A DNA stretch of 64,000 bases from Methylopila sp. 73B (GTDB lineage Bacteria > Pseudomonadota > Alphaproteobacteria > Rhizobiales > Methylopilaceae), in NCBI RefSeq assembly GCF_000526315.1, contig NZ_JAFV01000001.1:1488001-1552000 (forward strand). The letters are read 5' to 3'. Positions 4,934 to 45,222 of this stretch are shown in pieces. Within the stretch, counting starts at the first letter, position 1; the number at the start of each line of letters is the position of its first letter. The notes below the pieces were generated by a model. It made no database searches. It had not been told where the DNA came from and saw only the letters and a program-made list of their open reading frames with translations. Made by a program: the position numbers and the translations under genes.

Positions 4934-5056
4934 CGTCATCCCGGCCGAAGCGCAGCGGAGACCGGGATCGTCGGCAGGATGGCGCTATTGCGACCGCTCG
5001 CCGGAGACAACTGCGGAGGACGATCCCGGATCGGCCTGCGGCCGTCCGGGATGACG
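4934..5056. repeat. Palindromic repeat element, family B, intergenic copy
   Basis: The outer arms are CGTCATCCCGG (4934-4944) and its exact reverse complement CCGGGATGACG (5046-5056), with a secondary pair, CCGGGATCGTC near 4963 and GACGATCCCGG near 5019. The element fills the gap between the convergent MFS and SDR genes and could fold into a long cruciform or act as a bidirectional terminator. A second copy of the same family, with the same arms and internal motifs, is found inside mdcB at 44799-44910. Confidence 0.8.
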
Positions 5057-42018: not shown

Positions 42019-42146
42019 GAAGCCCCCTCACCCGGCGCTTCGCGCCGACCTCTCCCCGCCGGGGAGAGGTTAAGAACGGCGCCGCTTCTCACCTCTCCCC
42101 GGCGGGGAGAGGTCGGAGGGCGGAGCCCTCCGGGTGAGGGGGCTTC
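42019..42146. repeat. Palindromic repeat element, family C
   Basis: Perfect 17-bp outer arms (GAAGCCCCCTCACCCGG at 42019-42035 and its reverse complement at 42130-42146) with nested inner repeats (ACCTCTCCCCGCCGGGGAGAGGT and a mirrored copy CACCTCTCCCCGGCGGGGAGAGGTC). It fills nearly the whole gap between matC and mdcA and could act as an attenuator or mRNA-stability element. Different in sequence from the two repeats in mdcB. Confidence 0.85.
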
Positions 42147-42176: not shown

Positions 42177-43823
42177 ATGTCCGATACGAACTCACGCTCC
42201 TGGTCGACCCGCCGCGACGACAAGCTGCGCCGTTTGCGGGCGGTCGAAGCGCACGCGGACGGTAAGGTTCTTCGCGCGGCCGAGATGGTCGCGGCGCTGG
42301 AGGCGGTCCTCGTCTCCGGAGACCGGGTGGCGCTCGAGGGCGACAACCAGAAGCAGGCGGACTTTCTCTCGCGCTCCCTGGCGAAGGTCAGCCCCGAAAA
42401 GGTGCGCGACCTGCACATGCTGATCTCGTCGATCTCGCGGCCCGAGCAGATCGACGTGTTCGAGACCGGCGTGGCCAAGAAGATCGACTTCGCCTACGCC
42501 GGCCCGCAGTCGCTGCGCGTGGCGCAGCTGCTCGAGGACGGCGCGCTCGAGGTCGGGGCGATCCACACCTATGTGGAACTCTACGCCCGCATGTTCGTGG
42601 ACCTGACGCCGCGCGTCGCGCTGGTGGCGGCCGAGAAGGCCGATCGGTTCGGCAACCTCTACACCGGCGCCAACACCGAGGACACGCCGACCATCGTGGA
42701 GGCGACGGCCTTCGGCGGCGGGATCGTGATCGCGCAGGCGAACGAGATCGTCGACGAGCTGCCGCGCGTCGACATTCCCGGCGACTGGGTCGATTTCGTC
42801 GTCAAGGCGGACCGCCCCGCCGCGATCGAGCCGCTGTTCACCCGCGACCCCCGCCTGATCACCGAGCAGCACATCCTGATGGCGATGCTCGCGATCCGCG
42901 GCGTCTACGAGCGCCACGGCGTGGTCTCGCTCAACCACGGCATCGGCTTCAACACGGCGGCGATCGAGCTGCTGCTGCCGACCTACGCCGAGCGCCTCGG
43001 GCTGAAGGGGAAGATCGCCCGGCACTGGACGCTGAACCCTCACCCGACCCTGATCCCCGCGATCGAGAGCGGCTGGGTCGACAGCGTGCACTGCTTCGGC
43101 GGCGAGGTCGGCATGGAGGCCTACATCGCCGCGCGCTCCGACGTGTTCTTCACCGGCCGAGACGGCTCGCTGCGGTCGAACCGGGTGCTGTGCCAGCTCG
43201 CGGGGCAATACGCCGTCGACATGTTCATCGGCGCGACGCTGCAAATCGACGGCGACGCCAACTCCTCGACCGTCACCGCCGGCCGTCTGGCGGGGTTCGG
43301 CGGCGCGCCCAACATGGGCCACGACCCCGGCGGCCGGCGGCATTCGAGCAAAGCCTGGCTCGACATGAAGACCGACCCCTCCCCTACCGCCCGCGGCAAG
43401 AAGCTGGTCGTGCAGATGGCGGAGACCTTCCAGTCCGGCGGCGTGCCGACCTTCGTGGAGGAGCTCGACGCGGTGAGCGTCGGCCGGGCCGCAGGCATGC
43501 CGATCGCGCCTGTGATGATCTACGGCGACGACGTCAGCCATGTGGTTACCGAGGAGGGCGTCGCCTACCTCTATCTCGCGGCCGACGAGGACGAGCGCCG
43601 GGCGGCGCTCGCGGCGGTCGCGGGCGTCAGCCCGATCGGCCTGCGCCACGACCCGCGCCGCACGGACGACCTGCGCGCCAAGGGCCTGGTGGCCTACCCC
43701 GAGGACCTCGGCGTCGACCCCACCGAAGCCAGCCGCTCCCTGCTTGCGGCGCGCACCATCGAGGACCTGGTCGAATGGTCCGGCGGGCTTTATGCGCCGC
43801 CCGCGAAGTTCAGGAGCTTTTGA
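42177..43823 (+). CDS. mdcA: Malonate decarboxylase, alpha subunit
   Basis: A 548-residue acyl-carrier-protein transferase subunit: it exchanges acetyl for malonyl on the prosthetic group of MdcC, starting the cycle. 'RVALEGDNQKQADFLSRSL' near the N-terminus, 'GFGGAPNMGHDPGGRRHSS' and 'YGDDVSHVVTEEGVAYLYLA' are typical MdcA/CoA-transferase-like motifs. The ATG at 42177 is used rather than one at 42165. It begins the run mdcA-B-C-D-E-G-H. Works in the cytoplasm as part of a multisubunit, biotin-independent enzyme. Confidence 0.95.
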   Translation: MSDTNSRSWSTRRDDKLRRLRAVEAHADGKVLRAAEMVAALEAVLVSGDRVALEGDNQKQADFLSRSLAKVSPEKVRDLHMLISSISRPEQIDVFETGVAKKIDFAYAGPQSLRVAQLLEDGALEVGAIHTYVELYARMFVDLTPRVALVAAEKADRFGNLYTGANTEDTPTIVEATAFGGGIVIAQANEIVDELPRVDIPGDWVDFVVKADRPAAIEPLFTRDPRLITEQHILMAMLAIRGVYERHGVVSLNHGIGFNTAAIELLLPTYAERLGLKGKIARHWTLNPHPTLIPAIESGWVDSVHCFGGEVGMEAYIAARSDVFFTGRDGSLRSNRVLCQLAGQYAVDMFIGATLQIDGDANSSTVTAGRLAGFGGAPNMGHDPGGRRHSSKAWLDMKTDPSPTARGKKLVVQMAETFQSGGVPTFVEELDAVSVGRAAGMPIAPVMIYGDDVSHVVTEEGVAYLYLAADEDERRAALAAVAGVSPIGLRHDPRRTDDLRAKGLVAYPEDLGVDPTEASRSLLAARTIEDLVEWSGGLYAPPAKFRSF

Positions 43824-43826
43824 GCG

Positions 43827-44930
43827 ATGATGGACACGTTGACGCCGCGCTTTGCGCGCACGCCGTTCACGCGCAGAAACGCGCCGTCATGCCCGCGCGA
43901 AGCGCGGGTATCCACGACTTTCCCTGCCGCGATCGACGCCCAAGTCGTGGATGCCCGCGAAAGCGGGCATGACGGCGAGGATGGCGGCGCGCGCCCTGCG
44001 CATCTCGCCGACCTCGCCGTGGCCGCCCTCGCCGCTGAGGCCGAGCTTACGCCCAAGCCCGGCCTCGTCGACCGGCGCGGCGCGGGCTCCCACGCCGACA
44101 TGGAGCTCGACACGCTGCTCGCCTCCGCCGCGGCGCTGCGCCCGACCTTCGCGGCGCTCGCCCACGCCGCGGAAGGCGAGAGGCCCTCACAGGCCTTGCG
44201 CGAGGCGCTCGCACGCATCGGCCGCGACGGCGAGACCGCGATGTTCGCCGCGACTGGCGGCGTCAACACGCACCGCGGCGCGATCTTCGCGCTCGGCCTG
44301 ATCATGGCGGCCGCGGCGATCGAGGGCTGGGACGCGGCGGCCGCCGACATCTGCGCGACGGCCGGCGCGATCGCCCGTTTCGCCGATGGCGCGGCCCCCG
44401 TCGCCGTGCTGAACGGCGCCGTCGCCTGCCGGACCTACGGCGTCGGCGGCGCGCGTGGCGAAGCGGCGGCCGGGTTCCCGCATGCGCTCAAGGCGCTCGA
44501 AGCGGTGCGCGACGCCCGCGCGCGCGGCGCGACGGAGACCGCCGCCCGTCTCGACGGGCTGATGGCGGCGATGGCGGGCCTCGACGACACCTGCCTGCTC
44601 CACCGCGGCGGGCGGCGGGCGCTGAGGGTCGCGCGTCTCGGCGCGCGCGCCGTGATCGCGTCCGACGGCGCTGCGACCGCGGACGGCAGGGCGGCGCTGC
44701 GCGCGCTCGACCGCCGCCTGCTCGCGCTCAACGCCTCGCCCGGCGGAAGCGCCGACATGCTGGCGGCCGCGCTGCTGCTCGACGCGCTCGACGCCAGCCG
44801 TCATCCCGGCCGCAGCCGAGCGGAGAGCCGGGACCGTCTTCGGGATCAGGCGCCCCCTCCCGACGACGATCCCGGATCGGCGCGGCTGACGCCGCTCGTC
44901 CGGGATGACGACGCGGACAGGGAGGCCTGA
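43827..44930 (+). CDS. mdcB: Triphosphoribosyl-dephospho-CoA synthase with repeat-derived ends
   Basis: A 367-residue enzyme making 2'-(5''-triphosphoribosyl)-3'-dephospho-CoA, the prosthetic-group precursor for MdcC. The core starts at about residue 58 ('LADLAVAALAAEAELTPKPGLVD') and contains 'FAATGGVNTHRGAIFALG' and 'DDTCLLHRGG'. It is longer than the usual 280-290 residues because residues about 19-51 and 325-362 are encoded by two different palindromic repeats in open frame. The in-frame ATGs all lie before the first repeat, so at least part of it must be translated. The core motifs look intact, so the enzyme is probably active. Confidence 0.92.
   Translation: MMDTLTPRFARTPFTRRNAPSCPREARVSTTFPAAIDAQVVDARESGHDGEDGGARPAHLADLAVAALAAEAELTPKPGLVDRRGAGSHADMELDTLLASAAALRPTFAALAHAAEGERPSQALREALARIGRDGETAMFAATGGVNTHRGAIFALGLIMAAAAIEGWDAAAADICATAGAIARFADGAAPVAVLNGAVACRTYGVGGARGEAAAGFPHALKALEAVRDARARGATETAARLDGLMAAMAGLDDTCLLHRGGRRALRVARLGARAVIASDGAATADGRAALRALDRRLLALNASPGGSADMLAAALLLDALDASRHPGRSRAESRDRLRDQAPPPDDDPGSARLTPLVRDDDADREA
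43882..43977. repeat. Palindromic repeat, family A, inside the 5' part of mdcB
   Basis: Perfect 15-bp outer arms (CGCCGTCATGCCCGC at 43882-43896 and its reverse complement at 43963-43977), with inner pairs TCCACGACTT/AAGTCGTGGA (43911-43920 and 43942-43951). Length 96 bases, a multiple of 3, so its insertion kept the mdcB reading frame. Confidence 0.88.
44799..44910. repeat. Palindromic repeat, family B, inside the 3' part of mdcB
   Basis: Outer arms CGTCATCCCGG (44799-44809) and CCGGGATGACG (44900-44910); it shares the arms and the internal motifs AGCGGAGA, CCGGGA and ACGATCCCGGATCGGC with the intergenic copy at 4934-5056. It encodes nearly all of the extra C-terminal residues of MdcB. Confidence 0.85.
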
Positions 44931-44934
44931 TCCC

Positions 44935-45222
44935 ATGGAACGCTTCGAACTCCGCTTCTCCGGCAACGCGCCGCTCGCCGGCCGGGCCCATGTGGGCGTG
45001 GTGGCCTCCGGCGATCTCGAGGTGCTGATTGAGCCCGCCAACGAGACGGTGGTCTCCGTCCGCACCAGCGTCGACGGCTTTGAGAAGGTCTGGCGCGCGA
45101 CGCTGGAGCGCTTCTTCGCCCGCCATCCCGTCGCCGCCCGGATCGAGATCAACGACTCCGGCGCAACGCCGGGCGTGGTCAGCCTTCGTCTCGCCCAGGC
45201 GCTGGAAAGGACCAAGGCATGA
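44935..45222 (+). CDS. mdcC: Malonate decarboxylase acyl carrier protein (delta subunit)
   Basis: A 95-residue ACP. Ser25 in 'VVASGDLEV' is at the position where MdcC carries the phosphoribosyl-dephospho-CoA group. 'INDSGATPGVVSLRLAQALER' at the C-terminus is family-typical. GGGAGG precedes the ATG. It is loaded by MdcB and MdcG, charged by MdcH, and used by MdcA and MdcD/E. Confidence 0.93.
   Translation: MERFELRFSGNAPLAGRAHVGVVASGDLEVLIEPANETVVSVRTSVDGFEKVWRATLERFFARHPVAARIEINDSGATPGVVSLRLAQALERTKA

Follow-up and report, generated by a model that had tools for sequence, protein, structure and literature searches.

Palindromic repeats placed in frame within bacterial genes have been described in several systems. 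The closest are the CGTC-tagged REPs of Di Nocera, De Gregorio and Rocco (2013, PMC3733652). As presented in the main text of that paper, where no word beginning with "Methylo" occurs, these elements carry an outward CGTC tag and a stem starting with AT and form inverted dimers. They are present in high copy number, mostly between genes and sometimes within them, mainly in alphaproteobacteria, and have no dedicated transposase. CGTC repeats occur in five phyla and include two families of Rickettsia palindromic elements, RPE-4 and RPE-6. The same text places REPs inside genes of several species, among them inserts in recB of two Xanthomonas species and double inserts in uvrA and uvrB; different REPs can thus occupy about the same site in orthologues, and one gene can hold two. 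The view of the initial annotation, that protein-coding palindromic repeats are known mainly from Rickettsia, was therefore too narrow. In Rickettsia, RPE-1, RPE-4 and RPE-6 are inserted in frame into coding genes at tolerated places. The QMITE elements of Coxiella, termed MITEs in their source (PMC5896051), extend genes in frame at the 3' end, as far as that account goes.

The present study concerns a window, by which is meant the whole stretch of 64,000 nucleotides of contig NZ_JAFV01000001.1 of Methylopila sp. 73B (positions 1,488,001 to 1,552,000), in which the gene mdcB carries two such repeats, A and B. All the properties listed above for the CGTC-tagged REPs are shared by the repeats studied here, as are in-frame insertion at tolerated places, 3'-end extension of a gene, different repeats at about one site in orthologues and the presence of two inserts in one gene. 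Repeat B, however, has long structured loops and a CGT tail instead of CCA, and the decoration here extends over five close orthologues of a single gene and involves several families. The host differs from Rickettsia, and about 95% of the located sites are not confidently in genes; from the Coxiella elements both the element family and the host differ. The genes recB, uvrA and uvrB serve DNA repair, whereas mdcB is decorated in five species, at both ends and in a core loop. Intragenic REP dimers were already known; that one gene is targeted over and over makes this a striking case. In the open-licence literature no paper was found on these repeats in Methylopila mdcB or isoleucyl-tRNA synthetase (IleRS), nor on in-frame palindromic repeats in IleRS. 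The features of the locus are as follows (window coordinates).

42177..43823, + strand: mdcA, upstream neighbour, with the gene caller's start; repeat-free as far as searched
43812..43816, + strand: AGGAG, likely mdcB ribosome site, within the last mdcA codons
43827..44930, + strand: mdcB, triphosphoribosyl-dephospho-CoA synthase; single open frame of 367 aa with both repeats in frame
43882..43977, + strand: repeat A, 96 nt, inverted dimer of CGTC-tagged palindromes, encoding aa 19-51
43885..43914, + strand: left REP unit of A; CGTC tag, 9-bp AT-starting stem with one G-T pair, 5-nt loop, CCA tail
43948..43974, - strand: right REP unit of A, inverted relative to the left one; 8-bp stem and 4-nt loop between CGTC tag and CCA tail
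44001..44795, + strand: conserved MdcB/CitG core, aa 59-323, from family models, dN/dS and AlphaFold
44799..44910, + strand: repeat B, 112 nt, inverted dimer, its loops long and its CGTC tags facing outward, encoding aa 325-362
44920..44925, + strand: GGGAGG, likely mdcC ribosome site, within the last mdcB codons
44935..45222, + strand: mdcC, downstream neighbour, ATG at 44935; repeat-free as far as searched

The lengths and encoded residues first given for both repeats were borne out. The longest exact arm of A has 15 nt (43882-43896 with 43963-43977) and the longest exact outer arm of B has 11 nt, and the predicted RNA folds reach -69.2 kcal/mol for A and -68.2 kcal/mol for B. Read from the sequence, the tag, stem, loop and CCA tail of A all agree with the CGTC-REP description in the main text of PMC3733652, which gives a terminal CGTC, TGTC or CCTC tag on each unit, an AT-starting stem of 8-9 bp, a loop of 4-5 nt and a CCA tail. 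The units of B agree in tag and AT-starting stem, the first pair of the left unit being mismatched in the window copy; its structured loop measures about 16 nt or more, and CGT stands in place of CCA. According to the same text, odd loops are permitted in some species. Thus A looks like a CGTC-tagged REP in full, while B fits in part and looks CGTC-like. Among 13 copies of A the left GTC and right GAC are invariant and the outermost base is nearly so; among 30 copies of B the left TC and right GACG are invariant and the left CG is nearly so. A and B had been called unrelated families. This has to be corrected: in both, inverted units carry their CGTC tags on the outside, and the two represent different families of one kind. 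In the 12-nt flanks of these same copies, 13 of A and 30 of B, no clear consensus emerges that would serve as a target-site motif, and no target duplication was evident by eye at the mdcG and mdcB inserts of genome G012. A RAYT transposase as the mover was rejected, for no match to the Y1 transposase model PF01797 was obtained in the own genome; the control matched in 5 of 14 genomes. The idea that the elements are built for coding was likewise rejected, since their other copies hold fewer open frames (3.33 per copy for A, 2.90 for B) than dinucleotide shuffles do (3.72 and 4.19).

The enzyme core is delimited by three family models. NF002315 (NCBIfam) matches MdcB at aa 57-324 with 308.8 bits against a cut-off of 280, TIGR03132 (MdcB, NCBIfam) at aa 59-321 with 287.9 bits, above its cut-off of 282.35, and Pfam CitG at aa 61-318. 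Both repeats therefore lie outside the core, as had been proposed. The tails gave no family match at E 0.001 with the NCBIfam and Pfam models. In NCBIfam, which presumably includes an RPE protein model, no such model matched MdcB at E 0.001, a comparison made at the protein level. In the AlphaFold model (input of 20 sequences, 19 of them from the 30 loci) the core has pLDDT mostly above 90, while values fall below 50 for aa 1-50 and 350-367 and are about 53 for aa 331-340; the tails are thus predicted to be of low order. Core dN/dS (Nei-Gojobori) is 0.35 against Methylopila sp. Yamaguchi, 0.37 against M. capsulata and 0.31 against G012, which points to purifying selection on the core. Against Yamaguchi the leader gives 1.34 (18 codons), A 1.45 (30), the link 0.31 (7) and B 0.67 (39). 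Repeat B, with 0.45 against G012 and few codons in either comparison, is not clearly neutral.

The junctions on both sides of mdcB are tight and conserved. Orthologues of six mdc neighbours, which we take to be mdcA, C, D, E, G and H, and of the transporter were aligned in five other genomes. In all six operons, those of the five close orthologues and of Ancylobacter, mdcB starts 3 nt past the mdcA stop and AGGAG lies in the last mdcA codons; the ribosome-site region reads AGGAGCTTTTGAGCGATG in the five clade operons and AGGAGCTATTGAGCCATG in Ancylobacter. The gap from the mdcB stop to the mdcC start is 4 nt in the window and M. capsulata and 3 nt in Yamaguchi, G012 and Ancylobacter, and the two genes overlap in Chenggangzhangella; in the operons compared the last mdcB codons hold a purine-rich stretch. 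At the start all five close orthologues share TGAGCGATG, and the purine-rich stretch stands at the stop or immediately before it; the inserts between the two preserve the frame. Since the inserts sit between these junction signals and the core, start, stop and presumed coupling are preserved. Elsewhere in the operon, a family C palindrome lies at window 42034-42127, in the intergenic space between the transporter and mdcA, and part of the C-terminal insert of G012 MdcB resembles window 42050-42146, with 91% identity over 99 nt.

Comparison with relatives, with and without the repeats, revealed an insertion pattern around a conserved core. In the family search (18 genomes, the own included) 12 genomes matched at E 0.001, several of the matches being repeats only. 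Close mdcB orthologues were present in five: the window's genome (G000), M. capsulata (G007), Yamaguchi (G013), Chenggangzhangella methanolivorans (G009) and G012. All five carry in-frame repeats, from several families. M. capsulata MdcB has A only and ends in LLLDALDGREV where the window carries B, and Yamaguchi has A and B, both diverged. Chenggangzhangella bears a palindrome of another family, D, at the N end and lacks a C-terminal insert; family D has at least about 40 scored places in that genome. An extension lacking repeat similarity would have spoken against the initial annotation, but this one is itself a repeat. The longest protein, that of G012, has 565 aa. Its N end carries a hairpin-like repeat together with an A-type dimer, its core has a family C element between two helices, and its C end combines B-type with family C sequence. 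In its predicted model the inserts are mostly of low confidence, the core insert (aa 277-349) included, and the core helices are preserved; the core insert falls at a short turn of the window model, between helices 218-232 and 237-251. MdcB of Ancylobacter oerskovii, with a core 68% identical, has 24 aa before the core and 2 aa after it and shares the junction motifs. Ancylobacter is thus empty at both ends and M. capsulata at the place of B, which points to insertion between junction signals that have been conserved. An order-wide search matched 49 of 397 genomes at 1e-30, some of which were fetched as loci and inspected. Within the genus, diverged homologues in G015, G017 and a second copy in G009 are 43-47% identical and lie beside mdcD/mdcE relatives. 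Their C-terminal extensions are 7 residues (G015) and 5 residues (G017); the second G009 copy reads 140, the alignment end being doubtful there, and other outgroup homologues inspected have 0-26. For these three, as for other distant homologues, the comparison of extension lengths covered the C end. The three loci (L014, L015, L022) represent a second, diverged mdc-like gene set, with mdcD/mdcE relatives 35-44% identical.

Repeat B is present in the window, Yamaguchi and G012 and absent from M. capsulata and Chenggangzhangella. The concatenated gene tree groups the window with Yamaguchi and the mdcB core tree groups it with M. capsulata, each with support 85; on either tree the distribution of B implies at least two gains or losses. 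In the N-terminal region the window and M. capsulata differ at 1 of 174 sites, against 72 of 790 in the core (Fisher p 9e-6), whereas 40 of 165 sites differ from Yamaguchi. There is one mismatch in the roughly 250 bp around A (window 43770-44022 against locus L069), while the mdcB core differs by 9% and mdcA by 5%. This near-identical segment looks like a short recombination tract carrying the repeat, which would explain the likeness to M. capsulata; neutrality alone would not predict it. Purifying selection as its cause is unlikely, given the strong difference of Yamaguchi in the same region. The larger result is recurrence, in that one gene has been repeatedly targeted by palindromic repeats. 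Its generality is limited by the three diverged homologues, whose fetched loci match none of families A-D.

In the own genome the repeats are abundant and strongly avoid genes. At least 23 sites of A and at least 55 of B, mdcB included, were located with BLAST and two covariance models; about 2-3 kb was fetched around each site outside the window, and genes were called by a 3-periodic Markov model trained on the genome. Confidently within genes are 4 of the 78 located sites (A in mdcB, B in mdcB, B in IleRS, B in a ligase-associated exonuclease), leaving 74 that are not. By the same gene caller the window is 85% coding, and against this figure the binomial probability of 4 or fewer of 78 in genes is 3e-56. 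Two of the four in-gene copies are in mdcB; the probability that two of four random in-gene copies share one gene is 0.0015, a post hoc figure that assumes about 4000 genes, a round and uncounted number. The notion that protein ends are tolerated landing sites holds for mdcB as far as relatives show insertion there, and falls short in two respects: a loop of the MdcB core, the middle of MdcG (G012) and IleRS are also occupied, and tolerance is not general, as the small in-gene fraction makes clear. A doubtful fifth case, scored as not confidently in a gene, is a B copy just upstream of yidD and in frame with it (L178:1160-1633), where the start is uncertain and a 5' extension is possible. A further intergenic B copy lies at window 4934-5056. 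Secondary or partial BLAST matches were left out of the counts (L109 2727-2759; L114 2860-2881, with a weak 63-aa ORF; L131 129-144; L148 1863-1905, overlapping an ORF end by 2 bp; second halves in L152, L153 and L154), while the primary match of a stretch was counted even when partial (38 nt in L116, for example). Duplicates were counted once (secondary matches in L136, L138 and L144 against L186, L177 and L176). Covariance-model A sites weaker than E 3e-5 (3400288, 4303598, 1109761, 1632333) were excluded, and for the weaker A sites L190-L194 the model score is the sole basis.

A second permissive site was found in IleRS, between VFVAFPL and ASVVIWTTTPW. It holds B in G000, G016 and G006; the own copy spans about 1475-1582 of L137 (C1:2371410-2371517). 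In G007, G012 and G014 it holds a different palindrome, of which 156 nt fold at -105.8 kcal/mol in G007, with at least 56, 81 and 46 matches, respectively, over both strands of those genomes. Assignment of this insert to family C was rejected, since it matches none of families A-D at E 1e-4 and forms a separate high-copy family. The site is empty in G008, G009, G010, G011 and G013, and G017 carries another insert that matches neither B nor the G007-type palindrome. The gene is split between contigs at the variable site in G014 and G015, the latter being outside the comparison. In other genera of the family the site varies, with no evident repeats. Among six other mdc genes in the five genomes 1 of 30 has an insert, against 5 of 5 for mdcB (Fisher 2e-5); the tally for the other genes was judged from alignment gaps and C ends, so that N-end inserts are possible. 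The difference may reflect more than tolerance, though the five species share ancestry. The one exception is a family C copy in frame in the middle of MdcG of G012 (L072:13371-13577), with a peptide nearly the same as that of the MdcB core copy. Besides this copy and two in mdcB, 2 of 18 inspected family C stretches of G012 lie in called genes: one ends a VWA protein (L210), and the other joins an OppC-like permease frame to an OppD-like ATPase frame (L195:582-2651) and may lie between two genes. For family D in G009, 20 stretches were inspected, of which 1 lies within a gene and 3 reach 2-5 bp into a gene end; the C-terminal tail of Chenggangzhangella SecF (L222:744-1643) is a family D repeat.

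We regard it as probable that REP dimers were captured in frame, and nearly neutrally, where operon junctions are tight and in loops. A and B would be copies of high-copy, REP-type palindromic dimers that are normally intergenic. With flanking gaps of 3 and 4 nt, and with the likely ribosome site of each downstream gene embedded in the last codons of the preceding one, the first dispensable DNA beside either junction would be mdcB's own end. A dimer that landed there would have survived only if it was free of stops and of a net length that kept the frame. Such a filter would keep the core in frame and the mdcB stop on the mdcC ribosome site, and the product would be a normal enzyme with unstructured tails under little sequence constraint. 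The same filter could act at the other permissive places, namely the MdcB core loop, the middle of MdcG and the IleRS loop. Support for the junction layout comes from the exonuclease copy of B (L127), which is arranged likewise, at the C end of a protein whose stop overlaps the start of the next gene. The starting points of this reading, i.e. the in-frame repeats, their copy number, the avoidance of genes, the empty sites, the conserved junctions and the selection on the core, are read from the sequences, and the low order of the tails from models; near-neutrality and the mode of insertion are what we infer. The stop filter belongs with the latter, for the elements are not generally open.

It could be possible that A is a leader that is transcribed but left untranslated in the window strain, with the start at GTG41 or GTG65, and that only the C-terminal repeat is wholly protein. 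This would be compatible with in-frame capture for B, which is translated whenever the core is, no stop occurring in the frame before 44928. It had been noted earlier that ATG starts exist only upstream of A, and this is so. In-frame GTG codons do occur, however, at residue 41 within A and at residue 65 within the core, and the window sequence by itself therefore does not compel translation of the whole of A. GTG41 is in frame in the window, M. capsulata and Yamaguchi, and G012 has in-frame ATG68 and ATG80 at or downstream of its N-terminal repeats. The main text of PMC3733652 also cautions that many N-terminal REPs may fall outside the true gene. Several observations speak against an internal start: Ancylobacter and all five close operons retain both the upstream start and AGGAG, no AGGA-like stretch is read close upstream of GTG41, and Chenggangzhangella mdcB has no ATG, GTG or TTG (the codons scanned, rarer starts being left out) between codon 1 and codon 77, which lies inside its core. 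On that ground its N-terminal repeat is very probably protein, and it offers the best case for translation at the N end. We infer that A is translated in the window strain; the untranslated leader is rather unlikely. It is barely conceivable that an MdcB subfamily has, in these extensions, a conserved domain or a targeting signal that is repeat-like by chance. An N-end extension does occur in all five close orthologues, but differing repeat families stand at that end, the extension is absent from Ancylobacter and, at the C end, from M. capsulata and Chenggangzhangella, and the tails lack family matches and have low predicted order.

A further possibility is that the hairpins are selected: in the mdc mRNA the palindromes would reduce how much mdcB (and mdcG) is translated, or would uncouple mdcB expression from that of the subunits MdcA, C, D and E, with coding as the price. 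As far as PMC5534430 goes, those four form a 1:1:1:1 holoenzyme while MdcB and MdcG make and attach its prosthetic group, and it is precisely these two enzymes, MdcG in G012 only, that carry inserts among the mdc genes compared. In each of the five close orthologues the first 210 nt fold strongly, with z between -3.4 and -7.4 where Ancylobacter gives +1.8, and the folding 5' regions stem from at least two repeat families (A, and D in Chenggangzhangella). Hairpins, however, accompany the repeats regardless of use. The 3' end folds unusually in G012 only (z -4.4), weakly in the window (-1.7) and not in Yamaguchi with its B (0.4); B is absent from M. capsulata, and the three diverged homologues have no match to families A-D at E 1e-4 in their fetched 3.75-3.87 kb. 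Moreover, mdcA is under tighter constraint than mdcB and mdcG: between window and Yamaguchi its dN/dS is 0.05 and that of the mdcB core 0.35, and identity to M. capsulata reaches 98% for MdcA and 84% for MdcG. Selected hairpins are quite improbable. A stronger form, that mdcB and mdcG are recurrent targets whose palindrome families are kept as in-frame attenuators tuning the maturation enzymes below the stoichiometric subunits, is very doubtful; if true, bacteria would be reusing mobile palindromes as in-frame translational attenuators.

In effect, mdcB amounts to a natural insertion experiment: among close relatives one enzyme gene occurs with empty sites, with inserts at one end, at both ends and in a core loop, from several families. 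For annotation the finding is a warning: in genomes of this type a tail of about 35-45 residues can derive from a repeat. Together with the IleRS site, the mdcB series can be used to test how palindromes enter genes, which places in proteins tolerate them and whether hairpins are retained for regulation.
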